Source of the DNA: Verrucomicrobiota bacterium | GTDB lineage: Bacteria > Verrucomicrobiota > Verrucomicrobiia > Limisphaerales > UBA9464 | Assembly (NCBI GenBank): GCA_947454705.1 | Contig: CANGKZ010000007.1 | Location: 62,001-126,000 of the forward strand | DNA length: 64,000 nt | Direction: 5' to 3' | Part shown: positions 35,971 through 52,316 of the stretch, in pieces | Layout: each line of letters begins with the position of its first letter | Numbering within the stretch: position 1 is the first letter of the stretch | Notes under the pieces: model-generated | What the model was told of the DNA's origin: nothing | The model's database searches: none | The model's input: the letters and a program-made list of their open reading frames with translations, nothing else | Position numbers and translations under genes: made by a program

Positions 35971-37308
35971 ATGGTCGCGCGCATGACCGGGGCCGTGGCG
36001 CAATACGATGTGATCGTGATCGGAGGAGGGCCGGGAGGAAGCTGCGCCGCCACGATTCTCGCCAGGGCGGGCCGTCGGGTTCTTGTATTGGAAAAGGAAC
36101 ACTTTCCCCGATTCCACATCGGCGAATCCCTGCTGCCCTACAATCATTCCATTTTTGAGGAACTCGGACTGCTGCCCGCCCTCGAAGCCGCGGGCTTTCC
36201 CATGAAAAAGGGCGCCCAGTTTCACCTTGGGAACGGATCCAAAGGAGTGGGCTTCGCCTTTCGCAACGGGCGCTTCACCCGTCACACCTCGGCATTCCAG
36301 GTCGAGCGTTCCAAATTTGATCACATCCTGCTTCAGCACGCCCGGTCCTCCGGAGCGGAGGTGCAGGAAGGCGTGTCGGTCGAGCGCGTGGAGGCCGATG
36401 CTTCCGGAGTTTCGGTGATCGCCGGCACGGCCGCGGGGGCCCGTTCCTGGCGCGCGCGGTTGCTCATCGACGCTTCGGGACGCGGGAATCTCACCGGCAC
36501 CCAGGAGGGAATTCGGGAGCCGAATCCGAAGCTGCGAAAGCTCGCCGTGTTTGGTCACTTCGAGGGAGTGGCGCTCGATGAAGGGGAGAAGGCGGGCGAC
36601 ACCGTTATTGTTCGCCTGGAAAACAAATGGTTCTGGCTGATCCCACTCCGCGTCGGTCCTGGGTGCGACAGCAAGGTGAGCGTCGGCCTCGTGATGGATC
36701 GTGAGGAATTCGCCGCCAACCGCCGGAGTGCGGAGGAAGTGTTCGACCAATTCGTGGCCTCGAGCCCTCCTGTTGCGGCGCGACTCCGCGGGGCGCGCCG
36801 TGGTTCTCCAATTCAGGTCACGAGCGACTTCAGTTATCGAAATCGATCCTTCTGGTCGAATCGCGTGGTGCGGGTCGGCGACGCGGCAGGGTTCATCGAT
36901 CCCATCTTTTCCAGCGGCGTGTTCGTGGCGATGCACTCCGCAAAACTCGCGGCCGCGGCCGTCCTCGAGGAATTAAAGTCCGATGGCAATGGCGCGGTCC
37001 GGTTTCCCGCCTACGAAAAACGGCTTCAGGCCGCCATGGCGATTTACATGGAGATGGTGGACAACTTCTACACCACGCCCTTCATGGAGGTGTTCCTCGA
37101 ACCCCGCGCCAAATGGAACCTGGATGCCGCGGTGAATGCGGTGCTTGCCGGCGAATTGGAAGGCGGGTGGAGGCTGCGCTGGCGCATGCGCGTCTTTTTC
37201 TGGCTGGTCCGCCTGCAGGCAAAACGCCCGTTCATGCCACGTATCACGTTTGATACGACGTCCGGCGGTCAGGGAGCGGAGCCCCAGTCCTCACGCATCC
37301 CGGAATGA
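35971..37308 (+). CDS. flavin-dependent halogenase-family oxidoreductase 1
   Basis: The 445-residue protein (ATG 35971; ATG 35983 and TTG 35947 are alternatives) has the FAD-binding GGGPGG (18-23) and DASGRGN. It carries the family motif W-x-W-x-I-P as WFWLIP (220-225), a lysine in KKGAQF (K79) at the position of the catalytic Lys of phenol/pyrrole-type halogenases, and GDAAGFIDPIFSSG (303-316). These mark the tryptophan/pyrrole halogenase superfamily, which also includes non-halogenating oxidases. It opens the pigment cluster and overlaps the next start by four bases (ATGA). Confidence 0.78.
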   Translation: MVARMTGAVAQYDVIVIGGGPGGSCAATILARAGRRVLVLEKEHFPRFHIGESLLPYNHSIFEELGLLPALEAAGFPMKKGAQFHLGNGSKGVGFAFRNGRFTRHTSAFQVERSKFDHILLQHARSSGAEVQEGVSVERVEADASGVSVIAGTAAGARSWRARLLIDASGRGNLTGTQEGIREPNPKLRKLAVFGHFEGVALDEGEKAGDTVIVRLENKWFWLIPLRVGPGCDSKVSVGLVMDREEFAANRRSAEEVFDQFVASSPPVAARLRGARRGSPIQVTSDFSYRNRSFWSNRVVRVGDAAGFIDPIFSSGVFVAMHSAKLAAAAVLEELKSDGNGAVRFPAYEKRLQAAMAIYMEMVDNFYTTPFMEVFLEPRAKWNLDAAVNAVLAGELEGGWRLRWRMRVFFWLVRLQAKRPFMPRITFDTTSGGQGAEPQSSRIPE

Positions 37309-37790
37309 AAACGACTGGAGGGCCCCGCGCGCTTCGCGCCGCGACAGGGTGTGTCATTGTTGGTTTGCTGCTGATCGCGTCCGGATGCGCCGGTCCGAGG
37401 CTCGCCCCGGTGGATCTCCACGAGCCCGGCTGGGTGGTGCGGGAATCCCAGGTGGTCTGGCGTCCGCGGCGCGATGCACCCGAACTGGTGGGCGAGTTGA
37501 TGGTGGCCACACATCCGGACGGACGCCGATTCGTCCAGCTCAGCAAGCAGGCTTTGCCCTTGATCACCGCGCAGGAATCCAGCCGGGGATGGAATCTGAG
37601 TTCGACCCTGCGCCGTGGACGCTTCGGAGGCGGACCGCCCGCCACGGATCGCGTGCCTTGGTTCCAGTTTTCTTCGATTCCACCGTCGCTCCCCGTTTCG
37701 TCGCGATGGCAATTGGAGACGGGCACCAATGGAATGTGGCGCTTGAGTCAGCCGGCCACCGGTGAAGTGGTGGAAGGGGGAATTCCTTGA
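37305..37790 (+). CDS. lipoprotein of the pigment cluster, DUF3261-like position
   Basis: The 161-residue protein has a lipoprotein signal with lipobox LLIASGC (C28), so it should be lipid-anchored, probably in the outer membrane. The rest is a small beta-rich domain containing GELMVATHPDGRRFVQLSKQ; I cannot match it firmly to a family. In aryl polyene clusters a DUF3261 outer-membrane lipoprotein occurs next to the exporter and LolA genes, and this one has that position. Its ATG overlaps the previous stop and its stop overlaps the exporter start (TTGA). Confidence 0.7.
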   Translation: MKTTGGPRALRAATGCVIVGLLLIASGCAGPRLAPVDLHEPGWVVRESQVVWRPRRDAPELVGELMVATHPDGRRFVQLSKQALPLITAQESSRGWNLSSTLRRGRFGGGPPATDRVPWFQFSSIPPSLPVSSRWQLETGTNGMWRLSQPATGEVVEGGIP

Positions 37791-40700
37791 GCGGAATCGC
37801 GAAGCGGATTCTGGCGGGAATTGTCGCGGTCGTGCTGGTGCTCGGGCTCGTCCGGCTCCGGTTCGATGCCGACATCTTCAATCTTCTCCCGGCCGATCTG
37901 CCGTCGGTGCACGGCCTCCGGCTGCATCAGCGGAATTTCTCCAACGCCCGCGAGCTCATCGTGACGCTGGAATCGTCGGATTCCGACGCAACCGAAGCGG
38001 CGGCACGAAAGGTATCCGCTCGACTGAAGGCCGAACCAGGATTGGTCCGGTCGGCGCGATGGCAGCCGCCGTGGCTGGAGAATCTGGGCGACGGAGCTGA
38101 GAACCTCGCCTGGCTCTGGCTTCAGCAGCCGCCCGATGAGGTGAACCGATTCATCGAACGCCTCTCCCCAACGAACCTGGTGCAGGAACTGAACGCGACG
38201 CGGGAATTGCTGGCGACCTCGCTGGATCCGCAGGTGCTGGCGCGTCGCAGCTACGATCCGCTTGGATTGAGTCAGATCCCCGGGGAATCCGCGCTCGCCG
38301 GGTTCGACACCGGTGTCGGTTTGTTTTCCAACGGCGACGGCACCTTTCGCACCGTGTTCGTAGAGCCGATGGATGGCCGCATGAACTACCGCGCGGCCGC
38401 GGCGTGGGTGGCTTCGGTGCGGCGCGTGGTGGAGGCTGCGGTCGCGGAATCTGGCCCCGGGGCGAAGCAGGTTCGCACCGGGATCAGCGGCGGTCCGGCG
38501 TTCCTCGCGGAGATCTCCACCGGGATGGAAAGCGACCTGCAAAGTTCCGTGGCCAGCACCATCGCGGTGATCGCCGTGCTGTTCTGGCTCGCCCACCGGA
38601 GCTGGCGTCCGCTCGGCTGGTTGATCCTCAGCCTCGGTTTGACCTTGTTGATCACGATGGCGCTCGGCGGACTCATTTTTGGAACACTGAATGTGGTCAG
38701 CCTCGGGTTCGCTGCCGTTCTGCTGGGGCTGGCGGTGGATTATGGATTGGTGAGCTATCAGGAGTTCGCCGCCGCGCCGGGCCAGTCGGTGCGCGAGGTT
38801 CGACACGAGGTGGCCCCTGGCATCGCGTATTCCGCCGCGACCACAGCCTGCACCTTTCTGCTGCTGGGGTTCGCGGGGTTGCCGGGATTGGCCCAGTTGG
38901 GAGTCCTCACGGCGGTGGGCTTGCTGGTGGGTGCGGCCGTGATGCTGTTCGTCTTTCTACCGCTGGTGGCACGGGTTCCGGTGCGTGTCGCGGCCGTTCT
39001 GGAAGCTTCCCCAAGCCCACGGCAAATCGGCTGGGTTCCCACCGGCCTGGTGCTGTTGTTCTGTGCTGTGGTTCTTGGAGCACGGGGATTGCCGGTGGTG
39101 ACCTCAAGCACGGATCCGTTGCGTCCTCGTCAGAGCGCGGCGTATGACACGATGGACCGCTTCAAACAGGCACTCGGGCGGACCAATGAGCCCGTTTGGA
39201 TTCTCGCCTCGGGGGACACGCTGTCGTTGGTGGGCGATCGGCTCGCCGCCTCCGAACGAACCCTCGCCACGGCGAAATCCAATGGCCTGATCACGAGCTT
39301 TACTCTACCTGCGGGATTCTGGCCCCGGCCCGACCGCTCTGGAACCAACCAGGCGGCCATCGCCGCGCTGGGGCGTCGCGAATCGGAGCTGAAAACGGCG
39401 GTGCTCAACGCCGGCTTCACCACCCAGTCGCTTGCGCTGACCGAGGGAGTTCTCAAGGCCTGGAATCGCGGGGCCGGAGACGCGACCCATCCGTGGCCCG
39501 AAAATGAAACAGCGCGCTGGCTGTCGTCCCAGTTCTCGGCGCGCACGCCTTCTGGTCAGTGGCTGGCCCTCGGCATGGTGCAAACGGATTCAACCGTGCT
39601 CCCACGCCTCGATCTTCCCGAGGGCGTGACCTCCACGAGTTGGAGCTCACTCGGATCCTCGCTCCTCGCGCATGTGTCCCGGCGCATTGTGGCGGTCACC
39701 GCGTTGATTGCCGCCATGTTGGTGGCCTGCCTGTGGGTGGCGTTTCGCAACGTGCGGGAGGTGCTTCTCAGCCTTGCGGCGCTGGCGTTGAGTTTCACGC
39801 TGCTGCTGGCGGTCATGGCCTTGATTGGCTGGCAGTGGAATTTGCTCAGCCTGGTCGCGCTTCCGCTGCTGCTCGGCTCGTCGGTCGATTCCACCATCCA
39901 CGTGCAACTCGCGATGCGGCGTCATGGATCGGACCTCCGATCGCTTTGGCGCATCACCGGTCGGGCCCTGCTTCTTTGCGCCGGGGCGAACATCGCGGGA
40001 TTCGGTTCGCTGGCGTGGAGCAACAACCAGGGCCTCGCGAGTCTGGATCTGGTCTGCGCGGTCGGCGTCGGATGTGTCTTTTTGGTCTGCGTGGGATTGC
40101 TGCCCACCTGGCGACGCTGGGTGGTTGCTGAAAATGCGCCGCCGTCCCCGACCGGGAAAAGCGGTCCGCAACCGTCGCGAATCTACGGCGCCTTTGCGTG
40201 GCGCGTGTGTGTGGTCGTGGTGCGTTGGATGCCGCGATGGATGCTGGAGTCCCTCACGCGGATTGGTGTTCGGGGGTATCAGCATCTCAACTCGGACCGC
40301 TTTGAGATCGTGGTCCGGAATCTCCTCCCGCTGGTGGATGGGAATGCCGAGAAGGCGCGCCGTCTTGCGGTTGAGAATTTCGTTCAGTTCGGACGCAAAC
40401 TGGCGGACCTGTGGCGCTACGAGTCGGGGGTTCCCGATGCGGCCGTGGCTCGGCCTGGGGAAGGGTGGCAACATTTTGAAGCCGCGCTGAGCTCGGGACG
40501 CGGCGTGCTGCTGGTGACTCCGCATTTGGGGAATTGGGAATTGGGCGCGCCCCTGTTGGCTGAGCGAGGCGTACGTCCGCTGGTGCTCACGGCGCCGGAG
40601 CCCGAGGGACAACTCACGCGGATTCGCAGCGAGATCCGTTCGCGAATGGGCGTGGACACGTTGGTGGTGGGGGAGAATCCGTTCGCGTTCGTCGAGGTGA

Positions 40701-41053
40701 TTCGACGTCTCCAGGATGGCGGGATCGTGGCCCTGCTTGTGGATCGCCCCCCGGAGGCCACGCGGGTGGACGTTGAGTTTCTTGGCAGGCGATTGCCCGC
40801 GACGATCGCGGCCGCGGAGCTCGCCCGGGCCTCGGGATGCGTGGTGCTCCCGGTTTGCATTGTTCGCGAGTCCGATGGCTATCGCGCCCACACCCTGGCA
40901 CCGATCCCCTACGACCGCGCGCAACTCGGCACCCGCGAAGCCCGCATCGCCTTCACTCAGCGGATGCTGCGTGTCTTTGAACCGGTTCTTCGACAGTATC
41001 CCACCCAGTGGTTTCACTTCGTCCCGGTGTGGAGTCACGACGAACGTTCATGA
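37787..41053 (+). CDS. MMPL/RND-type exporter fused to a lysophospholipid acyltransferase
   Basis: The 1088-residue protein begins at TTG 37787. Residues about 1-790 are an MMPL-type RND permease with two repeats, each a periplasmic loop plus about five membrane helices, and paired helix motifs GLAVDYGLVSYQEF and LLGSSVDSTIHVQLA. From about 830 to 1088 lies an HtrB/LpxL-type acyltransferase with the catalytic HX4E motif HLGNWE (913-918), plus LLVDRPP and FLGRRLPAT. In described clusters these are usually separate proteins. A fused enzyme could acylate the polyene lipid and hand it to the exporter. It is translationally coupled to the preceding lipoprotein gene. Confidence 0.88.
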   Translation: MSGIAKRILAGIVAVVLVLGLVRLRFDADIFNLLPADLPSVHGLRLHQRNFSNARELIVTLESSDSDATEAAARKVSARLKAEPGLVRSARWQPPWLENLGDGAENLAWLWLQQPPDEVNRFIERLSPTNLVQELNATRELLATSLDPQVLARRSYDPLGLSQIPGESALAGFDTGVGLFSNGDGTFRTVFVEPMDGRMNYRAAAAWVASVRRVVEAAVAESGPGAKQVRTGISGGPAFLAEISTGMESDLQSSVASTIAVIAVLFWLAHRSWRPLGWLILSLGLTLLITMALGGLIFGTLNVVSLGFAAVLLGLAVDYGLVSYQEFAAAPGQSVREVRHEVAPGIAYSAATTACTFLLLGFAGLPGLAQLGVLTAVGLLVGAAVMLFVFLPLVARVPVRVAAVLEASPSPRQIGWVPTGLVLLFCAVVLGARGLPVVTSSTDPLRPRQSAAYDTMDRFKQALGRTNEPVWILASGDTLSLVGDRLAASERTLATAKSNGLITSFTLPAGFWPRPDRSGTNQAAIAALGRRESELKTAVLNAGFTTQSLALTEGVLKAWNRGAGDATHPWPENETARWLSSQFSARTPSGQWLALGMVQTDSTVLPRLDLPEGVTSTSWSSLGSSLLAHVSRRIVAVTALIAAMLVACLWVAFRNVREVLLSLAALALSFTLLLAVMALIGWQWNLLSLVALPLLLGSSVDSTIHVQLAMRRHGSDLRSLWRITGRALLLCAGANIAGFGSLAWSNNQGLASLDLVCAVGVGCVFLVCVGLLPTWRRWVVAENAPPSPTGKSGPQPSRIYGAFAWRVCVVVVRWMPRWMLESLTRIGVRGYQHLNSDRFEIVVRNLLPLVDGNAEKARRLAVENFVQFGRKLADLWRYESGVPDAAVARPGEGWQHFEAALSSGRGVLLVTPHLGNWELGAPLLAERGVRPLVLTAPEPEGQLTRIRSEIRSRMGVDTLVVGENPFAFVEVIRRLQDGGIVALLVDRPPEATRVDVEFLGRRLPATIAAAELARASGCVVLPVCIVRESDGYRAHTLAPIPYDRAQLGTREARIAFTQRMLRVFEPVLRQYPTQWFHFVPVWSHDERS

Positions 41054-41054
41054 C

Positions 41055-41786
41055 ATGAACCAGAATCGATGCATCCCTTCCTTTGGGCGGCGTTCTTCCG
41101 CCGTGGCGATCCTCGCATCGCTGGCGTGGTGCTGGGTGTCGATGCTGGCGACCGGCGTCGCAGCGCGTGCCGATGAGCCGGATCAAATTCTGGACCGATG
41201 GCTCGCGACGCAAAAGGACCTCACCTCGTGGAGTTCCGATTTTGTCCAGATTAGGTACCTCAAGGCGTTGACCCAGCCGCTGCGGGCCTCGGGGCATCTC
41301 TGGTTTGAGGCGCCGAACCGTTTTCGATGGGAGCTCGGGAATCCGGTGCAATCGGTGGCGCTCCGGAAGGATGAGAACCTCTGGATTCTTTCGCCGCAGT
41401 TGAAGCGCGCGGAACGCTATTCCCTCAACGAACTGCAAAAAGGGCCGATTCGCGATGCCCTGGCGCTGCTGGACACCGGGTTCCCGCGCGACGCGGCGGA
41501 GTTTCGACGCGGATTCAACTTGGTCCGCCTTTCGACCGCAGGAGGCGTTCACGTGTTTCACCTGCAGCCCAAGGCGTCGGCGGTGAAACGCCTGCTTCCT
41601 GATCTCACGGTCGAGGTGTCGGCCGAATCTTTTTCGCTCACCGCCACGGAGCTGATCTTTGCCGACGGTTCGCGTCTGCGGAACGAGTTCACCCAAAGCG
41701 TGAAGAATCCGAAGCTGCCGGCCGATTGGTTCAATCCGGGCACCAATTCGACCTGGAAGATCTCCGAACCGATGAAGTCGAAATGA
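41055..41786 (+). CDS. LolA-like outer-membrane lipoprotein carrier
   Basis: The 243-residue protein has a signal peptide (cleavage near AARADEP, about residue 38-40) and a LolA-type domain: LTSWSSDFVQIRYL, LRASGHLWFEAPNRFRWEL and LWILSPQLKRAERY. LolA-fold proteins bind lipid acyl chains in the periplasm. Found beside an MMPL exporter, it probably ferries the polyene lipid to the outer membrane, as proposed for LolA homologs in aryl polyene clusters. It starts one base after the exporter stop. Confidence 0.85.
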   Translation: MNQNRCIPSFGRRSSAVAILASLAWCWVSMLATGVAARADEPDQILDRWLATQKDLTSWSSDFVQIRYLKALTQPLRASGHLWFEAPNRFRWELGNPVQSVALRKDENLWILSPQLKRAERYSLNELQKGPIRDALALLDTGFPRDAAEFRRGFNLVRLSTAGGVHVFHLQPKASAVKRLLPDLTVEVSAESFSLTATELIFADGSRLRNEFTQSVKNPKLPADWFNPGTNSTWKISEPMKSK

Positions 41787-41822
41787 ACGCGTCCGATGTT
41801 TCAGGACGGGGAAGGGGTGGCG

Positions 41823-42263
41823 ATGTCTGACCCAATGAATCAGGCGCTCGGGGCGCTGCCCCACGGGCCGGAGTTTCGATTTCTGGATCGGCTCCTTTCC
41901 CTGGAGCCCGGAGTGAGCGGCTCCGGGGAATACTCGCTTCGTGGCGATGAACCGTTTCTCAAGGGGCATTTTCCAGGAAGCCCATTGATGCCCGGCGTGC
42001 TGCTTGTGGAGGCGGCGGCGCAATTGGCCGGAGTCGTGGCCCAGAGTGATCCTGCGCGTTCGCCGCTGCAGAATTTGAAACTCACCGCCATCCGGGCCGC
42101 GAAGATTCTTGGATCCGCCCAGCCCGGAGAGACCATCACCGTCCACGCCCGCGTGGTGGGGCGCATGGGGAATCTCATCCAGGCGCAATCGACGGCGAGT
42201 TGCCGCGGGCAGTTGATTCTCCAGTGCGAGGTGACCCTTTCCGGAACCGGCCCCGGAACCTGA
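41823..42263 (+). CDS. FabZ-type 3-hydroxyacyl-ACP dehydratase (hot-dog fold)
   Basis: The 146-residue protein has the FabZ catalytic pattern GHFPGSPLMPG with H49 and the Glu in LLVEAAAQLAG (E63). It should dehydrate 3-hydroxyacyl-ACP, making the conjugated double bonds. ATG 41823 is preferred over ATG 41796 because GGGAAGGGGTGG lies just upstream. It ends 15 bases before the convergent AMP-ligase gene. Confidence 0.9.
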   Translation: MSDPMNQALGALPHGPEFRFLDRLLSLEPGVSGSGEYSLRGDEPFLKGHFPGSPLMPGVLLVEAAAQLAGVVAQSDPARSPLQNLKLTAIRAAKILGSAQPGETITVHARVVGRMGNLIQAQSTASCRGQLILQCEVTLSGTGPGT

Positions 42264-42278
42264 TCGGGATCCCGGAGT

Positions 42279-43565
42279 TCAGCTTCGTGTTGCGTCCGAC
42301 TCAGGAAAGAGGTGCTGCCGCCACTGGGCTCGCGATCGTTTCCCCCGGGCGTTGACCGGAAGGGAATCGAGGAATCGCCACACCCGCGGAACCTGCCAGG
42401 CGGGCAGTCGTTCGAGGGCAAAGGCGCGCAGGGAATCGGCATCGATCGAACCGTTGGATTCAATCACGGCCACGATGGACTCGCCGCGCTGCTCCCCGGC
42501 GGGGATTCCAAAAACGATACACTCCTTCACCCCAGGATGGGTTCGGAGCACGGCTTCGATGGATTCGGGCGTGATCTTACGTCCGGCCACGTGAATGCGA
42601 TCATCCGCGCGTCCGAGCAGGAACAGTCTGCCGTCCGTCCCTAGATCGATTAGGTCGGTGGAGCGGTACAGGCCGTCTGCGAGCTGGGGTTCGGGTTCCG
42701 GCCAGTAGCCCTGGCCGACCGCAGGGCTGCGCACCTCGAGGCATCCGTCCACGCTCCGTCCCAAATAAACTCCGTGGAGCGCCGTGCCCACGAAGCGCGG
42801 GTCCGTGCGCGGATGCGGGGATCGATCATACGCGATGCCGCCGCATTCCGATGCACCGAGGAAGTTGTGGATCCGGAGGCCGCGCTCATGGAAGACCGAC
42901 GTCTCCAGGGGCAGGGGCAGCGGTGCTCCGGCCGAGAGGGCGATCTCGATGTTCTCAGGAATCGCCCCGGCCTCATGCCAGCTCCGCCAGAGCGCGGGCA
43001 CGGCGGGAAGGGTGATTCGGGTGGATCCCAGAACGCGGGCGGACGACAGGACCATCTCGGGGAGCGGCGAGGGCGCGAGAATCAACGGAATGCCGTGCAG
43101 CAGGAGGGGGAGCACCAAATTTGAAAACCCGTAGCTGTGGGCGAGCGAGATGACCCCGAGGTTGGGAAATGCGCGGGACAGTCCCATGGTGGACACGATG
43201 GCGTCGGCATCGGCGGCCAGCTGGGATGCGGTGAATCCGATGCAGCGCGGCCGTCCTGTAGTCCCAGAAGTGGTCTTCAGGTGAACAATTGACCCCGGGG
43301 GCGCGGGAAACTCGGGCACCGCTTGGCCGGATTCGAGCGGGCAGACCGGTCGGCCGGCCCGCCACGCCCGAAGCAGCGTGAGAAGGAATTCTACGCCGTG
43401 GCCGGACGGAAACAGGATCGGATCGGACTCGGCGGAACGCGCCGGTTCCGAATCGGCGATATCGGCCAGCTGGCGAAACGTCCACGAGCGTCCGCTCGCG
43501 GTTTCGTGCAAGGCGATCTCGTTGGCCTGTGTGGCGACACACTCGCGCCAGCGATCTTCAAGCAT
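42279..43565 (-). CDS. acyl/aryl-AMP ligase (starter-unit activation)
   Basis: The 428-residue adenylate-forming enzyme has the phosphate-binding loop TTSGTTGRPR (98-107), the adenine-binding region LGASECGG, GRADDRIHVAGRKI and a C-terminal lysine in NARGKRSR that fits the catalytic Lys. At 428 residues it is short, as in the stand-alone ligases of aryl polyene clusters that load an aromatic acid onto a carrier protein. The substrate is unknown; hydroxybenzoate or hydroxycinnamate are candidates. Start at ATG 43565; the in-frame extension upstream is rejected because it runs over the divergent gene. Confidence 0.82.
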   Translation of the reverse strand: MLEDRWRECVATQANEIALHETASGRSWTFRQLADIADSEPARSAESDPILFPSGHGVEFLLTLLRAWRAGRPVCPLESGQAVPEFPAPPGSIVHLKTTSGTTGRPRCIGFTASQLAADADAIVSTMGLSRAFPNLGVISLAHSYGFSNLVLPLLLHGIPLILAPSPLPEMVLSSARVLGSTRITLPAVPALWRSWHEAGAIPENIEIALSAGAPLPLPLETSVFHERGLRIHNFLGASECGGIAYDRSPHPRTDPRFVGTALHGVYLGRSVDGCLEVRSPAVGQGYWPEPEPQLADGLYRSTDLIDLGTDGRLFLLGRADDRIHVAGRKITPESIEAVLRTHPGVKECIVFGIPAGEQRGESIVAVIESNGSIDADSLRAFALERLPAWQVPRVWRFLDSLPVNARGKRSRAQWRQHLFPESDATRS

Positions 43566-43608
43566 TGCGCCGGGTGTTAGCCCGCACCTACGGTCGGGTG
43601 CAAGCGGA

Positions 43609-44433: not shown

Positions 44434-44792
44434 TTCTTCGGTTTCTTCCGCAGGCTCCCGAGGCTGAGGAACAGCCATCCGAAGAAGAACAATCCGGAGG
44501 CGTTGACCCCGAGCGAATAGCCCAGTTTGTAGGTCACCCCGGAATTCACCTGCGCGTAAATCTCCTGATCATGACCGGCCAGCAGCGCCGGCCAGGCCAC
44601 GGGCATCATCGCCCCGTGCAGCATTCCGCGGAACAATCCGGGCGGAGTGGTGAGTTTGGAGTCGGCCTTCATCGCGACCCCGCAGGCCCAGGCGAAGAGA
44701 TAGGCGGTCGCGGCCATGATCGCGAACCGGATCACCCAATGGCGACGGACCGGTGGAGTGGGGGAGCTGGGCGCTTGTTCGGAGGACGGCAT
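44430..44792 (-). CDS. small conserved two-helix membrane protein
   Basis: The 120-residue protein has two membrane segments (about 22-40 and 95-115). The block GLFRGMLHGAMMPVAWPALLAG followed by NSGVTYKLGYSLG resembles an uncharacterised family widespread in Bacteroidota and Proteobacteria that has no assigned activity. Its end overlaps the stop of the convergent lipoprotein gene by a few bases. Confidence 0.65.
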   Translation of the reverse strand: MPSSEQAPSSPTPPVRRHWVIRFAIMAATAYLFAWACGVAMKADSKLTTPPGLFRGMLHGAMMPVAWPALLAGHDQEIYAQVNSGVTYKLGYSLGVNASGLFFFGWLFLSLGSLRKKPKN

Positions 44793-44810
44793 CGCGATTA
44801 GGGTTCGACA

Positions 44811-45488
44811 ATGTTTTTGCGGCATCGAGCGATGCAAGCGGAATACTTTGACGGTGTAGATCGAACGCCCGAGGAGATTCGCGCCCACTATGTCGCACTG
44901 GAACGAATGAACCGGCTCACGCGGTTCGAGCGGCCCTTCCGCGTGTGGATTCCCAAGTTCCTCGGAGCCGACGCGTGCCGGCGGCTGAGAATCCTCGATC
45001 TCGGGGCGGGCAACGGGCAGCTCGGTCGCGTGCTTTCGGAGTGGGCGGCGGAGCATGGGTGGGAGTGGGAGTTTACCAATCTTGATCTGTGCCCGGTCGC
45101 GGCGCGGTTGGATCCGAGTGAACGACACGTGGTGGGATCGGTAACTGCATTGCCGTTTGCCGAGGGAGAGTTTGATGTCGTGGTGGCCACCACCATGACT
45201 CATCACCTGCCGGGCGATGCCGAAGTCATCGCGCATTTTCGCGAGGCGCACCGGGTTTCCCGCAGATTGGTGCTGCTGTGTGATCTTCACCGGAATCTGA
45301 TCTTCCAGATGATTCTCTGGTGCATTTGCCTGCGGGATTCGCGGCATTTTCGGGCCGACGGCGTGCTCTCGATTCGGCGCGGCTGGCGGGTGCCGGAATG
45401 GAGGGATCTCGCATCCCGTGCCGGACTTGACTCGGCGCGGGTCTGGCTCGAGCACGGAACCCGGGTGCTGCTCGCGGTTACGAAGTGA
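44811..45488 (+). CDS. class I SAM-dependent methyltransferase
   Basis: The 225-residue protein has motif I LDLGAGNGQLGR and a post-I acidic residue in NLDLCP. The FDVVVATTMTHHLPGD region is the methyl-acceptor loop characteristic of small-molecule O- or C-methyltransferases. In a polyene cluster it probably methylates the aryl head or a ring position. It overlaps the convergent glycosyltransferase gene at the 3' end by 11 bases. Confidence 0.85.
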   Translation: MFLRHRAMQAEYFDGVDRTPEEIRAHYVALERMNRLTRFERPFRVWIPKFLGADACRRLRILDLGAGNGQLGRVLSEWAAEHGWEWEFTNLDLCPVAARLDPSERHVVGSVTALPFAEGEFDVVVATTMTHHLPGDAEVIAHFREAHRVSRRLVLLCDLHRNLIFQMILWCICLRDSRHFRADGVLSIRRGWRVPEWRDLASRAGLDSARVWLEHGTRVLLAVTK

Positions 45489-46206
45489 CCGTTTTCTGGC
45501 CACGCCGCACGGAGGCGTACCAACGCCACCACCGGATGGCATCGCGCAACGGAGAGATTTTGCTGACTTCCGCGCCGTAGCGGACTTCCACGGGAACGAA
45601 GCCGATCCGTTTTCCCGCACGCGCGAAGGCGACGCACATCTCCGATTCGATTTCGAAGTGCTGCGTGTGGAGTGAAAGGGACATCAACGTGGGCAGATGC
45701 ATCAGCCGGTACCCGCATTGCGAATCGGGAATGGATGTGCCGGCGAGTTGGGAAACCTGACGGCTCATCCAGCGGTTGACTACACGCCGTCCCCACGGAA
45801 TTGCGGCGGGATTGTTGAAGCGATTCCCTATCCAGAGCGGAATCTGCTCGGTGGATGCGGACAGGAACCGGGGAATGTCGTCGGTCGAGTGCTGACCGTC
45901 CCCGTCGAGATGCAGGACCCAATGGAATCCGCGTCGTGCTGCCTCCGTCCATCCCTCGGCGAGCGAGGCGCCCTTTCCGCGATGCACGTCCTGACGCAGA
46001 ACCACGGCCCCAGCCGCCCTTGCTCTGGATAACGTGTCGTCCTGGGAGGCGTCATCCACCACGATCACGGTGTCCAGATGCATCCGCGCGCCGCGCACCA
46101 CGTCGGCAATCGTGCCTGCCTCGTTCCGGCAGGGGATCAAGGCTGCGCAGTGGGTGGCATTCGCGGACACGATTCGAGAATTCCGGGATGCCATCGCGCT
46201 GTCCAT
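45478..46206 (-). CDS. family 2 glycosyltransferase
   Basis: The 242-residue protein has the GT-A fold: ALIPCRNEAGTIADVV at the start, VIVVDDASQDDT, the DxD-type LHLDGDGQH, and the later RVVNRWMSRQV and DSQCGYRLMHL typical of GT2 prenyl-phosphate sugar synthases and related enzymes. There is no long hydrophobic C-terminal region. GT2 enzymes are a standard part of aryl polyene clusters, where a sugar or acyl transfer to the head group is suspected. Start at ATG 46206 (46194 is an alternative); it diverges from the radical SAM gene 63 bases away. Confidence 0.85.
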   Translation of the reverse strand: MDSAMASRNSRIVSANATHCAALIPCRNEAGTIADVVRGARMHLDTVIVVDDASQDDTLSRARAAGAVVLRQDVHRGKGASLAEGWTEAARRGFHWVLHLDGDGQHSTDDIPRFLSASTEQIPLWIGNRFNNPAAIPWGRRVVNRWMSRQVSQLAGTSIPDSQCGYRLMHLPTLMSLSLHTQHFEIESEMCVAFARAGKRIGFVPVEVRYGAEVSKISPLRDAIRWWRWYASVRRGQKTVTS

Positions 46207-46269
46207 CCTCCGCTCCGGGTTTGGTCTGATTGGTTGGACTTTGGGGGCTGATTCCCGAAGAGTCTGCGC

Positions 46270-47283
46270 GTGATTGCCAGGTGGTTTCCCGGTTCCGACG
46301 TTCTTCAGGCAGCAGGCGCTGCCCAGGAGGAATTGCACGCCCGGGCCTCTCAGGCGTTGCGCGATCAATTTGGTCGGCGCGTGTTCGTCCGGGCCGTGTT
46401 GGAGGTGTCGAATTTCTGCCGGGAGAACTGCCACTACTGCGGGATGCGGCGCGACAACCGCGCCCTCGCTCGCCGGCGGGAGAATCCCGAGGCCCTCGCG
46501 GAGTCGTTGATCCAGGCCGGTCTGAAATCGATCACCGACATCAACATTCAGGCGGGGGAAGATCCGGTGGCGGTCCGAAGTGTGGTGCTGCCGTTGATCC
46601 GGATTCTCCGCCGGGAAACGCAGCTCGGAATCAGCGTCTGTCTCGGTACGCTTTCGCAGGAGCTCACACGCGAGATCCGTGAAGCAGGAGCCTCAACCTA
46701 CATTATCAAATTTGAGCTGGCGGATCCGAAGCTTTACGGCGCTTTGGAAGCACCGGGAACGCTGGAGGAGCGCATCGCGTACATCCGGTGGCTGGCGGAT
46801 CAGGGTTGGCACGTCAGCTCTGGCTTCATCGCCGGGCTGCCGGGGCAGGGGATCGACTCCATCCTCCAAAACTTCCGGCTGGCTGAGGAGCTGCCGTTGA
46901 TCGGATGCAGCGTGAGCCCGTTCGTGGCCGGACCGGAAACTCCGCTGCGGGACGCCGCGCAGTCTTCGATCGATCTGACGCTGAATTCCATGGCGTCACT
47001 CCGTTTGATGCGGCCCGACTGGGTGGTTCCCGCAGTGAGTGCGTTGAACATCGCCGGTCCGGAAGGGGGCTACCTGCGCGGTCTCCGGGCCGGTGCGAAT
47101 CTGTGCACCATCAACATGACCCCTCAGTCCTTGCGCGAGGACTATGTGATCTACAAGCGGGACCGTTTCATCATGACCGAGGAACGCGTTCTCGAAGCCA
47201 TCGAAGCGGCCGGCATGGAGCGATCCACAGTGAGCCTCGCGGCCCATTTCGAGTCGCGGAGTTCGAAACGCGTTGGTGCCTAG
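46270..47283 (+). CDS. radical SAM enzyme of the BioB/HydE/PylB clade
   Basis: The 337-residue protein starts at GTG 46270. CX3CX2C is CRENCHYC with C50, C54 and C57 for the [4Fe-4S] cluster. Blocks such as SITDINIQAGEDP, GLPGQGIDSILQNF and SVSPFVAGPETPLR, and the C-terminal region with GANLCTINMTP, match the BioB/ThiH/HydE/PylB group with a BATS-like domain. It is not biotin synthase by context: there are no bio genes, and hydrogenase maturation genes hydF and hydG are absent. Its position in the polyene cluster suggests a role in starter or head-group tailoring, perhaps sulfur insertion or C-C rearrangement; this is inference. Confidence 0.8.
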   Translation: MIARWFPGSDVLQAAGAAQEELHARASQALRDQFGRRVFVRAVLEVSNFCRENCHYCGMRRDNRALARRRENPEALAESLIQAGLKSITDINIQAGEDPVAVRSVVLPLIRILRRETQLGISVCLGTLSQELTREIREAGASTYIIKFELADPKLYGALEAPGTLEERIAYIRWLADQGWHVSSGFIAGLPGQGIDSILQNFRLAEELPLIGCSVSPFVAGPETPLRDAAQSSIDLTLNSMASLRLMRPDWVVPAVSALNIAGPEGGYLRGLRAGANLCTINMTPQSLREDYVIYKRDRFIMTEERVLEAIEAAGMERSTVSLAAHFESRSSKRVGA

Positions 47284-47305
47284 CCGTAGAAGACGAGCAG
47301 CGGTT

Positions 47306-48886
47306 TCACGCCGGGTTCGTCACTGCAGTCGAAGCCGCGGGCATTGGGCGGGGCTGCGGTGCGGATTGGAACCAGGATCTCCAGCCCTCGCGGACCTCCA
47401 TTCCCAGCCATCCGAGCACCGCGCGCACTACTGGGAAGACCGTTGAATCATCGGGACGGAATCCATTCAGCAGAAACCGCTGATGCGCATTGCTGCGGCC
47501 GAACACGCCGCGTGCTTTCCGGGAGCGGGCGATGCTTACCAGTCTGCGATTGTAGGTGCGCATCAACCAGTGTGGCAGATCCGACGTGGAGAGCGTGAAG
47601 ACGGAATTCCGAAGCGCGGCCGGACCGAATTTCAACGGCTGCGACACGACCCCGAGGTAGTACAGCCCCAGGTCGAGTCGGAAGGCGGTTCGCATCAATT
47701 CGAAATCACCGAGGTACTCGTACTTGTCCTGATAAATGGCGGTGAACCAGCGGTCATACGATCGGGTGAAGTCACGATTGTGTGCATCGATTTTTCCCGC
47801 GAGCGCCGCAGTTCCGCACCCATCCTGCTCTGAAAGGATGAGCTCTACCGCCCGGGTGGTGGTGTACGAAAGCCAGTCCATTCCCGGGGAGTAAAGCGGA
47901 TCGATGAAGCCGGCAGCGTCGCCGGTGAGCACGAAGCCGTCGCCGGCAAACACGGTGGTGGAATACGCGAGATTGGCCCGGAGGCGAACATCGCCCTCCA
48001 CCGGAGTGGCGCCTTCGAGCATCTCCTTCGCCACCGGATGATGCGCGGTCAGAAAACGGGTCAATCGTTCCGACAAGGTTCCGTCGCGGGGGAGATCCAC
48101 GAGGCGTTGATCAAAAACGATCCCCACCGAGGTGTCGCCGCCCTTGAGCGGGATCCACCACGACCACCAACCGTCACCCACCACATGATTCGTGGCGGTG
48201 GCGCGGATGCCATGGCAGGCCCCGTACCATTCCGGGTACTTGGTGGCCAGTTCGCGTCCGTCCCAATCCTTCACGCCTTTCCAGCGGGCCCAGACCGCGG
48301 TGGTGGGATGCGCGGCGTTGCGCCGATACCACCCCTCCTGTCGTGCAAGCAAAGCGGTGAATCCACTCGCGTCCACCACCCAACGGCCGATCAACGTTCG
48401 CTTGCCGTTGGGCTCCTCCACCTCCACCGATTGCATGCCGCCCGGGGTCAACTTCACGGCCAGCGCCTTCGCGGGACGGTGCAGCACCACGCCGGCTTCA
48501 ACTGCGAGTCGAAGGACTTCTTCATCGAGGACGCTCCGGTCCACCTGCCATGAGGGAACCCGCGCGAGGTAGCGTCCGCCGATCTCCGAGCAGTCCGCCA
48601 GGGTCGAGGCTTGAGCGTTGGAGTACCAAAAGCGCATCCCCTGCTTGGTGAGGTGGTGCTCGTTGAGATGCCGGGTGAGTCCGAGGACCTTGCCCAAAAA
48701 GAAGGCACTGACTTCGACCGTGGCCTCGCCCACACGACGCGGGAAGTGGGTGGACTTTTCCACCACGGCGATGCGAAGGCCGGGTTTTGATCTCAGGAGC
48801 AGGAGAGCGGTCGCGGCCCCGGCGAGCGATCCGCCACACACCACCACGTCGTATTCGGACGTGATGGGATCCGCTGCGGATTGCAT
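47306..48886 (-). CDS. flavin-dependent halogenase-family oxidoreductase 2
   Basis: The 526-residue protein starts at ATG 48886 and has the FAD loop CGGSLAG (17-23), a halogenase-type Lys in KQGMRF (K81), W-x-W-x-I-P as WSWWIP (241-246) and GDAAGFIDPLYSPG. It has a longer C terminus than protein 1, with a hydrophobic region that may touch membranes. Two such proteins in one cluster could add halogens to two positions or act sequentially; one may be an oxidase. It lies 87 bases from the divergent ketosynthase gene. Confidence 0.78.
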   Translation of the reverse strand: MQSAADPITSEYDVVVCGGSLAGAATALLLLRSKPGLRIAVVEKSTHFPRRVGEATVEVSAFFLGKVLGLTRHLNEHHLTKQGMRFWYSNAQASTLADCSEIGGRYLARVPSWQVDRSVLDEEVLRLAVEAGVVLHRPAKALAVKLTPGGMQSVEVEEPNGKRTLIGRWVVDASGFTALLARQEGWYRRNAAHPTTAVWARWKGVKDWDGRELATKYPEWYGACHGIRATATNHVVGDGWWSWWIPLKGGDTSVGIVFDQRLVDLPRDGTLSERLTRFLTAHHPVAKEMLEGATPVEGDVRLRANLAYSTTVFAGDGFVLTGDAAGFIDPLYSPGMDWLSYTTTRAVELILSEQDGCGTAALAGKIDAHNRDFTRSYDRWFTAIYQDKYEYLGDFELMRTAFRLDLGLYYLGVVSQPLKFGPAALRNSVFTLSTSDLPHWLMRTYNRRLVSIARSRKARGVFGRSNAHQRFLLNGFRPDDSTVFPVVRAVLGWLGMEVREGWRSWFQSAPQPRPMPAASTAVTNPA

Positions 48887-48973
48887 GTCGCTTTCTCTCC
48901 TGAACCCTGAGGACAAGCAAGCGCGCCCGTTGACTCCCCGTGTCGTCCCGTTAGCGTGCGCCCCACGCGTCGC

Positions 48974-50227
48974 ATGTTGTTTCCGTTCCCTCCAACCTCC
49001 GACAAGGCCGTTCGCGTGGTGGTAACGGGTGCAGGCGTCGTGACTCCCCTCGGGGTGGGATGGCAACTCAACGCAGACGGGTTTCGCACCGGCAGGAAGG
49101 CGTTCCGTCCGGTCACCCGGTTTCCCATTTCCACGCAGCGCGCCCGAATCGCCGCCGAAGTCGATTTGCCCGCATCGCTTCCGCCTACTCGCCTGACTGC
49201 CCGGCAGGAGCATCGACTGGATGCGGCCGCCCGCATGCTTTTGATTGCCGCGCACGAGGCTTGGACGCAGTCCGGCTGGAGCGGTGGATCGGATTTGATC
49301 CCGCTGGTGCTCGGGACGACGAGCGGCGGAATGAGTCTGGGCGAAGCCTTCTACCGTCAGGCATCGGCGGCATCGCCGGCCAATGCATCCGTTCGACGCC
49401 AACCCACGCGCATCACCCACTACCAACCTCAACGGCAGGCCTTGGACCTTGCCGATGCGTTTGGATTCGAGGGGCCGGTGACGATCATTGCGAATGCGTG
49501 TGCCTCCGGTGCCAACGCGGTCGGACACGCGTTTGATCTCGTTCGATCGGGTCGGGCTTCGCGCGTGTTGACCGGCGGATACGATGGGCTGAGCGAGTTG
49601 GTCTTCTCGGGATTCGACTCCCTTCAGGCGCTGTCGGTCACCTCGTGTCGGCCCTTCGACGCGCGACGCGACGGGCTCGCGCTGGGCGAAGGCGCGGCGG
49701 TGTTTTGTCTGGAGTCGCTGGAATCTGCGTCGCGTCGAAACGCCGAAGTGTTGTGTGAAATCTCCGGCTACGGATCCGCTACTGACACCCACCACCTTAC
49801 TCAGCCGCATCCGGCGGGGGACGCTGCGCTTCAATCGATGAACGCCGCGTGCGCGCAGGCGAGAGTCAGCGCTGAACACATCGGATACATCAACGCGCAC
49901 GGCACCGGCACTCCCGCAAATGATGGCGCAGAAGCATCGGCGATCACCCGCTGGGCCGGTGCGCGGGCCTCTTCGATTCCCGTGAGCTCCACCAAGGCCG
50001 GGATTGGACATCTGCTCGGGGCCTCCGGCGCAGTCGAGGCAGCGGTGTGCATGATGGCGCTGCGGGGACAGTGGTTGCCGCCGGAACTTGGGATCGGCGA
50101 ACCGGATCCAGCCTGCGGATTCCCGATCGTTACTGCTCCCACAGACGCCTCGTTTGAGTACGCGTTGTCGAACTCCTTTGGATTTGGCGGATCCAACGCG
50201 AGCCTCGTATTCCGGAGGTTTGCATGA
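48974..50227 (+). CDS. beta-ketoacyl-ACP synthase (KS alpha, FabF type)
   Basis: The 417-residue enzyme has an intact active site: NACASGAN with C176, NAHGTGTPAND with H309 and STKAGIGHLLGASG with K341 and H346. It should condense the growing acyl-ACP with malonyl-ACP. It couples by ATGA to the next gene, a degenerate ketosynthase, giving a KS/chain-length-factor pair like those in aryl polyene clusters. ATG 48974 is chosen; a GTG six codons upstream is possible. Confidence 0.93.
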   Translation: MLFPFPPTSDKAVRVVVTGAGVVTPLGVGWQLNADGFRTGRKAFRPVTRFPISTQRARIAAEVDLPASLPPTRLTARQEHRLDAAARMLLIAAHEAWTQSGWSGGSDLIPLVLGTTSGGMSLGEAFYRQASAASPANASVRRQPTRITHYQPQRQALDLADAFGFEGPVTIIANACASGANAVGHAFDLVRSGRASRVLTGGYDGLSELVFSGFDSLQALSVTSCRPFDARRDGLALGEGAAVFCLESLESASRRNAEVLCEISGYGSATDTHHLTQPHPAGDAALQSMNAACAQARVSAEHIGYINAHGTGTPANDGAEASAITRWAGARASSIPVSSTKAGIGHLLGASGAVEAAVCMMALRGQWLPPELGIGEPDPACGFPIVTAPTDASFEYALSNSFGFGGSNASLVFRRFA

Positions 50228-51243
50228 GCCGGATCTTCGTCCACGGAACCGGTGCCGTTTCGCCTGCGGGATGGGGCGTGGGTTCCATGATGGAAGCGTT
50301 GCGGATCGATCGGTGTCCGGTCGCGAGTGAAGTTCCGCGTCCCAATGGCGGGGAACCGCTCCGGGTCAACCGGGTTCCGGTTCCCTCGCCGAAGCCGACG
50401 TTTCTGGCGCATCCGCGGATGCGTCGGGCAAGTCCGATCAGTCAGTTTGCCCTTGGAGCCGCGATGGAGGCGGTTGGGGCCGACGTGGCTGCGATTGCAT
50501 CCGGCGCGGTGCGTCTCGGGATCGTGTTCTGCGCCTTCACGGGAAGCGTGAATTATTCGCGGCGGTTTTATTCCGAGGTGCTGAAGGATCCTGCTGGGGC
50601 TAGCCCGCTTCTGTTCACCGAGACGGTGTTCAATGCGCCCGCGTCCCACCTGGCCACCGTGCTCGGGACAACCGCGTGCACGTACACGCTGGTGGGCGAC
50701 GATGGGGAATTCATCCAGGCCCTCGCGCTCGCGGCGGAGTGGTTGACCGAGCATCGGGTGGATGCGTGCCTGGTGGTCGGCGCGGAGGAGTCGGACTGGT
50801 TGACGGCGGAGGCGCTGCGGATTTTTTCCCCTGACCGTCGGGCCGCCGAAGGATCGGCTGCACTTTACCTACGACGCGAATCGTCGCCGATCGAGCTCGC
50901 GGCGGTGTCCGATCCGTTCCTCTACCTGCACTCGCGCACCCGCGCGCAGGCCGCCGCCCAACTCGCCGCAAGTTTTGAGTCCGCGCGCTCGGAGGATGCA
51001 TTGCTCTGCGATGGACTCACCGGAAGCCTCAACGACTCGGACGAACGGGTCGCGTGGGAACGCTGGTCGGGACGGCGCGTGTCAGTGCGTCGAATCCTGG
51101 GCGAGGGGTTTGCGGCGAGCGGGGGATGGCAGTCGCTGGCGGCGGTGGAATCGATCCGCAATTCATCCGCCCAACGCGCCGTGGTCAGTGTGGTTGGCGC
51201 GAACCTGCAGGCAGTGGGGGCCGAGTTTCGACGAAACCCCTGA
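50224..51243 (+). CDS. degenerate ketosynthase, chain-length-factor-like
   Basis: The 339-residue protein has the thiolase fold and partial FabF similarity, but its active site is eroded. TACTY (C152) falls where KS has ACASG; the NAHGTGT His is replaced in CDGLTGSLNDSDE (262-274), and the GHLLGASG His in GEGFAASGG (293-301). It is about 80 residues shorter than the active KS. Overlap with the upstream gene and co-expression favour a heterodimer partner (KS beta/CLF) that sets chain length. Confidence 0.85.
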   Translation: MSRIFVHGTGAVSPAGWGVGSMMEALRIDRCPVASEVPRPNGGEPLRVNRVPVPSPKPTFLAHPRMRRASPISQFALGAAMEAVGADVAAIASGAVRLGIVFCAFTGSVNYSRRFYSEVLKDPAGASPLLFTETVFNAPASHLATVLGTTACTYTLVGDDGEFIQALALAAEWLTEHRVDACLVVGAEESDWLTAEALRIFSPDRRAAEGSAALYLRRESSPIELAAVSDPFLYLHSRTRAQAAAQLAASFESARSEDALLCDGLTGSLNDSDERVAWERWSGRRVSVRRILGEGFAASGGWQSLAAVESIRNSSAQRAVVSVVGANLQAVGAEFRRNP

Positions 51244-51297
51244 CCTTGTTTCACGAGGCATTTCGAGGTTTCATTCCGCCCCGAGGTTATCCAATTC

Positions 51298-52023
51298 ATG
51301 CGAGCCATACTCATCACCGGCGGAAACAGCCTCATCGGCCGGGCCATCGCGCGCGCGTTGCTGGAGAAGTCGTGCGCGGACCACGTTTGGCTCGGGGTGC
51401 GGCAACGTCGCGACGCCGCCGAGCAGCTTTCGGCTGAATTTCCCGGGAAGGTTCATTTGATCGATCTCGACGTCACCGACAGCACCGCGTGGGCTGCTGC
51501 GGTCGCTCGGATCGAACAAACCCACGGGGGAGTATCAGGATTGATCAACAACGCCGGGTTTCATACCGACGGCCTTCTGGCCACGATGCCGGCGGAGTCC
51601 TGGTCCGATGTTTTGCGGACCAATCTGGATTCGGTTTTTCACGGATGCCAGGCGGTGCTGCCCTCGATGATTGCCGCCCGGTACGGACGCATCGTGAACA
51701 TCGCCTCGCTCAGCGCCCTGCTTGCGCCCGCGGGGCAGGCGAACTATGCGGCAGCCAAGGCGGGCGTCGTGGCTTTGACCCAATCGCTGGCCAAGGAAAT
51801 GGCGCGATTGAGCATCACGGTGAACGCGGTCTGTCCGGGCTACATTGAAACCGAGGCGCTGGCCTCCATGGCCCCGGAACAGCGACGCGCCGCCGCGGCG
51901 CAGGTTCCAATGCGGCGCTTCGGACGACCGGAGGAGGTGGCGTCGGCGGTGGCCTTTCTTGCCAGCCCGGAGGCCAGCTACATCACCGGCGCAACGCTCA
52001 AGATCGACGGAGGCATTTTCTAA
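51298..52023 (+). CDS. FabG-type 3-oxoacyl-ACP reductase
   Basis: The 241-residue SDR has NNAG (84-87) and the catalytic triad S137, Y150 and K154 in the order seen in FabG, the loop [13 protein letters not shown] for NADPH and the C-terminal [14 protein letters not shown]. It should reduce 3-oxoacyl-ACP to 3-hydroxyacyl-ACP for the dehydratase at 41823. It runs between the KS beta gene and the carrier protein gene. Confidence 0.92.
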
Positions 52024-52028
52024 TTCCC

Positions 52029-52316
52029 ATGCACTCAGATTCAGAACGCGCCGCGCTGATCGCCGAGATCAAGGCCATGCTGGTGGAAACCCTCATGCTG
52101 CCGACTCCGGTGGAGGAAATGACCGATGATCAACTGCTCTTCGGCCCCGCAGGGCTTGGGCTGGATTCGGTCGATGCCCTCCAGTTGGTCGTCGCCCTCG
52201 ACAAACGCTACGGTGTGAAGATCAGCGACGCCGAGGTGGCGAAACTCGTGCTGGCGTCCATCGGCTCCATTGCCGACGCCATCCTTCAGAAGCGTTCCAA
52301 TTCTGGTACGCCCTGA
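52029..52316 (+). CDS. acyl carrier protein
   Basis: The 95-residue protein has the phosphopantetheine attachment motif GLGLDSVDAL with S47, and the GLDSVDALQLV form seen in aryl polyene and xanthomonadin carriers. It starts six bases after the ketoreductase stop. Only one carrier is encoded here, whereas several described aryl polyene clusters have two. Confidence 0.93.
   Translation: MHSDSERAALIAEIKAMLVETLMLPTPVEEMTDDQLLFGPAGLGLDSVDALQLVVALDKRYGVKISDAEVAKLVLASIGSIADAILQKRSNSGTP

Follow-up and report, generated by a model that had tools for sequence, protein, structure and literature searches.

In the biosynthetic scheme for aryl polyenes (ape), as set out in part of the published account (PMC8253772), an acyl-acyl carrier protein (acyl-ACP) synthetase loads the acyl carrier protein (ACP), a ketosynthase (KS) and a chain-length factor (CLF) extend the chain, and reduction and dehydration follow. 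Anchoring is assigned there to two acyltransferases, and export to RND and Lol-like proteins. A KS with a CLF-like partner is also described for Lysobacter, Xanthomonas, and others (sections of PMC3949708 and PMC3691225), and clusters of anammox bacteria combine type II fatty acid synthase genes with radical SAM, phytoene-desaturase-like, and VacJ-like genes (PMC2649909, in part). Here we analyze 64,000 nucleotides (the window) of a Verrucomicrobiota bacterium (lineage UBA9464; GenBank contig CANGKZ010000007.1, positions 62,001 to 126,000), which contain a run of 16 genes, named A to P, related to these systems. One of them, K, encodes a radical SAM enzyme of the HydE/PylB family whose presence in relatives is tightly coupled to that of the cluster ketosynthase, M. 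We think it probable that the run encodes, on the chromosome, the synthesis of a halogenated polyene lipid for the outer membrane, probably with an aryl head, a pathway in which K is integral, either making the starter or tailoring a carrier-bound intermediate.

The genes were called from codon usage on the window (14 training genes, four of them, A, C, K, and O, from the cluster), with outer ends at 35971 and 52316; for B, K, and N, the longer open reading frames (starting at 37305, 46270, and 50224) were adopted in place of the gene-call starts (37410, 46381, and 50464). Families were assigned by Pfam and NCBIfam profile searches, which recover a KS, a weak degenerate KS, a ketoreductase (KR), an ACP, a FabA/FabZ-type dehydratase, an AMP-forming ligase, a GT2 glycosyltransferase, and a methyltransferase, as well as MMPL, LolA, and radical SAM proteins and two flavoproteins of the tryptophan-halogenase family; B, G, and H have no Pfam match. 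The original prediction, made from the letters of the window, had placed such a set in one run here, and the gene call and both profile collections bear it out. Because the set is syntenic in relatives, the cluster is not a product of chance. Its genes are as follows.

A, 35971..37308, plus strand: flavin-dependent halogenase-like protein (PF04820, 112 bits; WxWxIP and FxxPxxSxG present).
B, 37305..37790, plus strand: predicted LolB-like lipoprotein, an ApeN counterpart by position and fold.
C, 37787..41053, plus strand: MMPL exporter with a fused C-terminal LpxL-like acyltransferase (PF03176, PF03279).
D, 41103..41786, plus strand: LolA-like carrier (PF03548; NF053544 LolA2_flexi 48 bits, below the cut-off of 125).
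E, 41796..42263, plus strand: FabZ/ApeI-like dehydratase (PF07977; best hhalign match ApeI, 60 columns).
F, 42279..43565, minus strand: AMP-forming acyl/aryl ligase (PF00501, PF13193; best hhalign matches the Pseudoalteromonas ligase and ApeH).
G, 43609..44433, plus strand: putative lipoprotein with a possible papain-like fold (invariant residues and predicted model).
H, 44430..44735, minus strand: small hydrophobic protein, kept in the cluster (no Pfam match).
I, 44832..45488, plus strand: class I methyltransferase, optional (PF08241; present in 21 of 80 loci).
J, 45478..46206, minus strand: GT2 glycosyltransferase (PF00535; hhalign against ApeJ, E 1e-23).
K, 46270..47283, plus strand: HydE/PylB-family radical SAM enzyme (PF04055; TIGR03956, 168 bits).
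L, 47306..48886, minus strand: second flavin-dependent halogenase-like protein, optional (PF04820, 62 bits).
M, 48974..50227, plus strand: ketosynthase (PF00109/PF02801; CASG, AHGTGT, and GHLLGA motifs; own clade).
N, 50224..51243, plus strand: degenerate KS, CLF-like (weak PF00109).
O, 51298..52023, plus strand: FabG-type ketoreductase (PF13561; FlxB 210 bits, below the cut-off of 340).
P, 52029..52316, plus strand: acyl carrier protein (PF00550; 42% to the Persicobacter polyene ACP over 78 columns).

An LptE-family gene lies just outside the cluster, at 53645-54157 of the window.

Seventeen profiles from the window (C entered as two halves, C1 and C2) were aligned by hhalign with the proteins of three described clusters, from E. 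coli CFT073, a Persicobacter plasmid, and a Pseudoalteromonas plasmid. Counterparts were found for 12 of them (A, C1, C2, D, E, F, J, L, M, N (weakly), O, and P), so the predicted kinship with aryl polyene clusters holds; B, G, H, I, and K have no convincing counterpart in the three clusters by profile alignment. The synthase set of aryl polyene clusters, with KS and CLF-like partner (weak in N), KR, dehydratase, ACP, and AMP ligase, is complete here, as are LPLAT, GT2, and the MMPL-LolA-LolB export set (LolB by fold only).

The cluster of E. coli CFT073 shares with ours KS, CLF, KR, dehydratase, ACP, acyl-ACP synthetase, LPLAT, GT2, MMPL, LolA, and LolB-like genes. Beyond these it has a second ACP, ApeR as a third KS, one more dehydratase, a thioesterase, and ApeG, but it lacks flavoprotein and radical SAM genes, both of which occur here; in the window, moreover, the LPLAT is fused to MMPL, and the KS belongs to another clade. 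A (33%) and L (28%) both align with an FAD oxidoreductase of the Pseudoalteromonas cluster, but that cluster includes an aromatic amino acid ammonia-lyase and has no annotated radical SAM gene. The Persicobacter polyene cluster, which we take to be flexirubin-like, shares LPLAT, LolA, ACP, FAD oxidoreductase, AMP ligase, and a peptidase-family gene; it too differs by an ammonia-lyase and the lack of an annotated radical SAM gene, and its C45 peptidase is unmatched by G. The Azoarcus arc and Xanthomonas xanthomonadin clusters, compared by description only (parts of PMC3949708 and PMC3691225), resemble ours in halogenase, AMP ligase, LolA, and exporter, but draw their starter from a chorismatase (XanB2/ArcB), unlike here. 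Flavoprotein, radical SAM, and peptidase-like genes and scattered gene orientation had been proposed to distinguish the locus from described clusters. Of these features, only the radical SAM gene clearly differs from the clusters compared. The flavoproteins do not set it apart because a halogenase gene is found in the Azoarcus and Xanthomonas clusters, nor does the peptidase-like gene, and scattered orientation is no distinguishing mark because the orientation itself is conserved.

The coupling of K to the ketosynthase was examined in 58 genomes (57 relatives and the genome of the window). K is present in 27 of them (E values to 9e-34; G001 and G032 hold only part of it), an M-type KS with at least 56% identity in 30, L in 25, and C, in some only partial, in 34. 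Twenty-six genomes have both K and M, one has K only (G001, 54% complete), four have M only, and 27 have neither. The Fisher p value of 3e-11 is a guide only because the genomes are related. Among the 39 genomes at 90% completeness, the corresponding counts are 17, 0, 4, and 18, and within the family of the source organism, 34 of 35 genomes are concordant for K and M, a figure reached in none of 20000 within-genus shuffles. K is coupled to the KS as tightly as the exporter gene C is. In three genomes (G013, G018, and G024) K and L lie on a contig stretch without KS and the KS lies on another contig; therefore, the association does not come from linkage alone. It extends to other families: K adjoins the KS in the closed genome G135, but is divergent, and in G314 it lies about 8 kb from the KS, beside an AMP ligase. 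In a further genome (G012; locus L164, about 9391-10547), which was not counted for M, K is absent, the cluster KS comes in several pieces, through breakage or misassembly, and only a fragment of the exporter, containing a stop, is matched; there the pathway seems to be decaying.

Gene order was mapped by tblastn in two sets, 26 stretches from relatives and 80 named loci that searches with K had located (80 of 97 were kept); as 18 of the 26 stretches recur among the 80 loci, counts from the two sets are not added. By our own count of their titles, 73 of the 80 loci are assigned to Verrucomicrobiota or a group within the phylum and four to other phyla, and three are labelled only "bacterium." The same order recurs in both sets, so the neighbors are indeed conserved together. 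Orientation is kept as well: where they are seen among the 80 loci, H is on the minus strand in 38 of 38, J in 45 of 46, L in 28 of 28, and F in 22 of 24, and M is always on the plus strand (48 of 48). A minority of loci have the A-E block reversed (A is minus in 5 of 15). K and M are both present with at least 50% identity in 48 loci; in all of these M is encoded on the strand of K, downstream of it. The gap between the two contains no gene in 23 loci, L in 17 (two of these with a UbiE-like methyltransferase in addition), a B12-binding radical SAM gene in six, a UbiE-like methyltransferase alone in one, and another gene in one; L and the B12 enzyme never share it (0 of 48). The stretch after K may be a slot in which relatives swap halogenase, methyltransferase, or B12 radical SAM genes. 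UbiE-like methyltransferases occur in 12 loci (one scanned). In one genome region (L057, 9512-10654, and L141, 5458-6207), a GT21-family glycosyltransferase gene and a YdjC-family gene lie between H and I, an insert that recalls HpnI/HpnK of hopanoid synthesis.

Among solved proteins, the nearest relatives of K are HydE (163 bits) and PylB (81 bits), and a CX3CX2C motif is present in 26 of 26 K sequences. K is rare outside its order: 3 of 387 genomes of a phylum sample, the source genome included, match at E 1e-60 or better, and plasmid matches reach the HydE level only (28-32%). Four bins titled Akkermansia muciniphila or Klebsiella pneumoniae also carry K (L075, L086, L088, and L114); these titles are probably wrong. 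To our knowledge, HydE-like enzymes beyond hydrogenase maturation and pyrrolysine synthesis are little explored, and in the open-licence literature we found no paper that links a radical SAM gene, HydE-like or other, with an aryl polyene cluster. Another candidate function of K was that of a tyrosine lyase of the ThiH type, which would yield p-cresol. In three relatives, ThiH-like proteins contain a stretch, STRE, that we take to be the site of the amino-binding arginine of the ThiH/HydG/NosL lyases. At that position K reads PAVSALN by eye, the profile alignment ending earlier, and the candidate was set aside because the arginine is seemingly missing, which, given the early end of the alignment, is not decisive. 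In the part of PMC9046217 that treats these amino acid lyases, the amino-binding arginine is R300/R323.

In a KS tree of 42 rows, several of them with long branches, a branch supported at 100/98 sets 18 M-type sequences and the KSs of G135 and G314 apart from the rest. FabF, FabB, ApeR-type KSs, and one Persicobacter KS are placed elsewhere (97/89), and ApeO-type KSs occupy a third place (98/96). A separate FabF is encoded on another contig (C11) of the source genome. Housekeeping fatty acid synthesis, an origin that the original prediction had proposed to check by KS phylogeny, is therefore rejected: the cluster KS is a clade of its own outside FabF/FabB, in a genome with a FabF elsewhere. 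In its partner N, neither the CAxG nor the AHGT motif was found in any of 14 sequences.

C joins, in one protein, an MMPL exporter and an LpxL-like acyltransferase, and its halves match ApeM and the Persicobacter LPLAT in hhalign. B is predicted to have a LolB-like fold: its model (pLDDT 82) returns LolB in the first seven Foldseek rows (E 0.0017-0.008) and aligns with LolB at a VIA Z score of 9.6 (112 residues, root mean square deviation (rmsd) 3.5). Cys28 is invariant in 14 aligned rows of B, two of them nearly identical; by sequence, B does not match ApeN or any other protein of the three known clusters in hhalign. For G, "peptidase-like" is plausible because Cys, His, and Asp/Asn columns are invariant (C83, H211, D231, and N233 in 24 aligned rows) and there is a weak fold match: the model (pLDDT 87) has no Foldseek row below E 0.001, and its papain-like VIA rows go up to Z 8.2 (166 residues, rmsd 4.5), near the level that the tool calls common. 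A papain-like fold is thus weakly predicted. The lipobox-like start of the window copy of G was judged by eye and is missing from many aligned rows.

By sequence, A and L are halogenase-like enzymes. Relatives of A in the Protein Data Bank are ChlB4, PltA, and CmlS, and A aligns over 375 columns with the Pseudoalteromonas flavoprotein (E 1e-47, hhalign). The WxWxIP motif, which part of PMC10696468 ties to halogenation rather than hydroxylation, is present in 7 of 7 A sequences, the window copy among them, and in 16 of 16 L sequences.

From these genes we infer a product, a place for K, and each of the following chemical steps. F would adenylate a small carboxylic acid and load it on P, and M and N would extend the chain with malonyl units. 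In each round, O would reduce and E dehydrate, giving a conjugated chain. A and L could halogenate the ring, and I could methylate. J and the LPLAT half of C would then join the acid to a glycolipid, and the MMPL half of C, with D (LolA) and B (LolB-like), would carry the lipid to the outer membrane. K would supply an integral step, either synthesis of the starter acid or tailoring of a carrier-bound intermediate. Of the product originally predicted, the outer-membrane lipid is likely and supported; the aryl head fared less well, no known starter gene being present in the cluster, and is probable by analogy, from the halogenases and the kinship with aryl polyene clusters.

Several observations weigh against this reading. 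First, four KS genomes (G038, G039, G043, and G044) have no K, which argues against a strict need for it; a fifth (G027), not counted for M, likewise lacks K, and its KS is a fragment at the end of a contig. Conversely, 27 loci extend at least 4.5 kb to either side of K; M is found in 22 of them and is missing in five (L086, L092, L103, L124, and L147). Second, M is not in the ApeO clade: ApeO and the matching Pseudoalteromonas and Cupriavidus KSs stand apart from it. Third, ad hoc patterns for the catalytic-lysine stretch of halogenases match only 3 of 7 A and 4 of 16 L sequences. Fourth, gene call and Pfam yield no thioesterase, second ACP, or starter gene in the cluster. Finally, models of four aryl-starter enzymes (TAL/HAL, UbiC, the Rv2949c-type lyase, and chorismatase) have no match in 29 of 32 KS-positive genomes (30 of the 58-genome set, G135, and G314), the source genome among the 29. 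The aryl head is therefore an assumption.

The same starter searches bear on a second possibility, that this is an ordinary aryl polyene cluster using 4- or 3-hydroxybenzoate from a housekeeping route missed by the models, with K as a minor tailoring enzyme. The 12 matched profiles fit it, and in E. coli, too, the starter comes from outside the cluster (PMC8253772, in part). However, among the 32 genomes neither UbiC nor the Rv2949c-type lyase is found (0 of 32 each). The single TAL/HAL match (PF00221, in G314) passes the hutH cut-off and adjoins hutU, and is thus a histidine lyase, and the two chorismatase matches are weak and partial (G046, 27.5 bits against a cut-off of 27; G038, 23.5 bits, below it). 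Moreover, a coupling to the KS as tight as that of C does not suit a dispensable step. We therefore consider this explanation rather unlikely.

Alternatively, the product might not be aryl at all but a polyunsaturated or cyclised lipid nearer to those of ladderane-type clusters, with radical SAM chemistry on the carrier-bound chain. Seven loci (L106, L109, L111, L122, L135, L139, and L143) have a gene for a B12-binding radical SAM enzyme after K, six of them in the gap before the KS (6 of 48 gaps), and all seven proteins pass TIGR04072 (rSAM_ladder_B12; 385-419 bits, cut-off 360). Among genomes without K, G038 has a truncated B12 radical SAM gene by its KS (TIGR04072, 323 bits), and G043 (L150, 229-11597) has around its KS a type III polyketide synthase, an FAD-binding protein, a methyltransferase, a halogenase-family protein, and a CrtI-family oxidoreductase. 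In four loci (L067, L118, L145, and L147), members of one family of proteins some 600 residues long are encoded close to K or a relative; the two that were scanned (L067 and L145) begin with an MlaA domain, and three of these stretches have no KS. The anammox clusters outlined at the start likewise unite type II fatty acid synthase genes with radical SAM enzymes, a likeness known by description only (parts of PMC2649909 and PMC9821293). But the anammox clusters also contain phytoene-desaturase-like genes and a radical SAM enzyme that binds B12. The window cluster has neither: Pfam and NCBIfam find in it no B12 domain (TIGR04072-type), CrtI-like, or type III polyketide synthase gene, and the ladderane link is, for this reason, an observation on relatives, some of which carry the B12 enzyme, the CrtI-like oxidoreductase, or both. 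Further, two halogenase-like enzymes and the UbiE-like methyltransferases of the 12 loci suit an electron-rich ring, and L and the B12 enzyme never occur together in a K-KS gap. A non-aryl lipid is thus quite unlikely. That K is a [FeFe]-hydrogenase maturase present here by accident is extremely improbable: HydE is its nearest named family, but K falls below the HydE cut-off (TIGR03956, 168.3 against 254.6 bits), HydG passes its cut-off in none of the 32 KS genomes (HydA and HydF were not searched), and K is coupled to the KS.

If K is integral to a halogenated, aryl-headed polyene pathway, as we favor, a role as the starter enzyme is reasonable because F can activate an acid, K adjoins the KS, and no starter enzyme is recognised; tailoring of the carrier-bound chain is an equal alternative. 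In its most explicit form, a HydE/PylB-branch enzyme would replace chorismate lyase, chorismatase, and ammonia-lyase and open a new way of making the head group, followed by the swap slot for tailoring genes; so specific a proposal we regard as unlikely. With the four models, no known starter gene was found to take the place of K in the four KS genomes without it: none has TAL/HAL, UbiC, or the Rv2949c-type lyase, and only the chorismatase match of G038, below cut-off, was returned. The type III polyketide synthase near the KS of G043, which scores 166 bits with the DpgA model against a cut-off of 425, is a single case.

With the assembly, anchoring, and export machinery of aryl polyene clusters, the locus combines another KS lineage, a fused exporter-acyltransferase, two halogenase-like enzymes, and an integral enzyme of the HydE/PylB branch. 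Arylpolyene clusters have been counted in Verrucomicrobiota, and Pedosphaerales are among the most prolific orders for all cluster types together, in the part of the survey cited here (PMC8692599). In our analysis, both gene order and a shared pattern of presence and absence tie a HydE-like enzyme to a polyene synthase, in an order for which metagenome bins are the main source of knowledge. Because this coupling is found in genomes almost without aryl-starter matches, it poses a definite and testable chemical question, and it suggests that some of the Verrucomicrobiota arylpolyene clusters in those counts may hide a different starter or tailoring chemistry.

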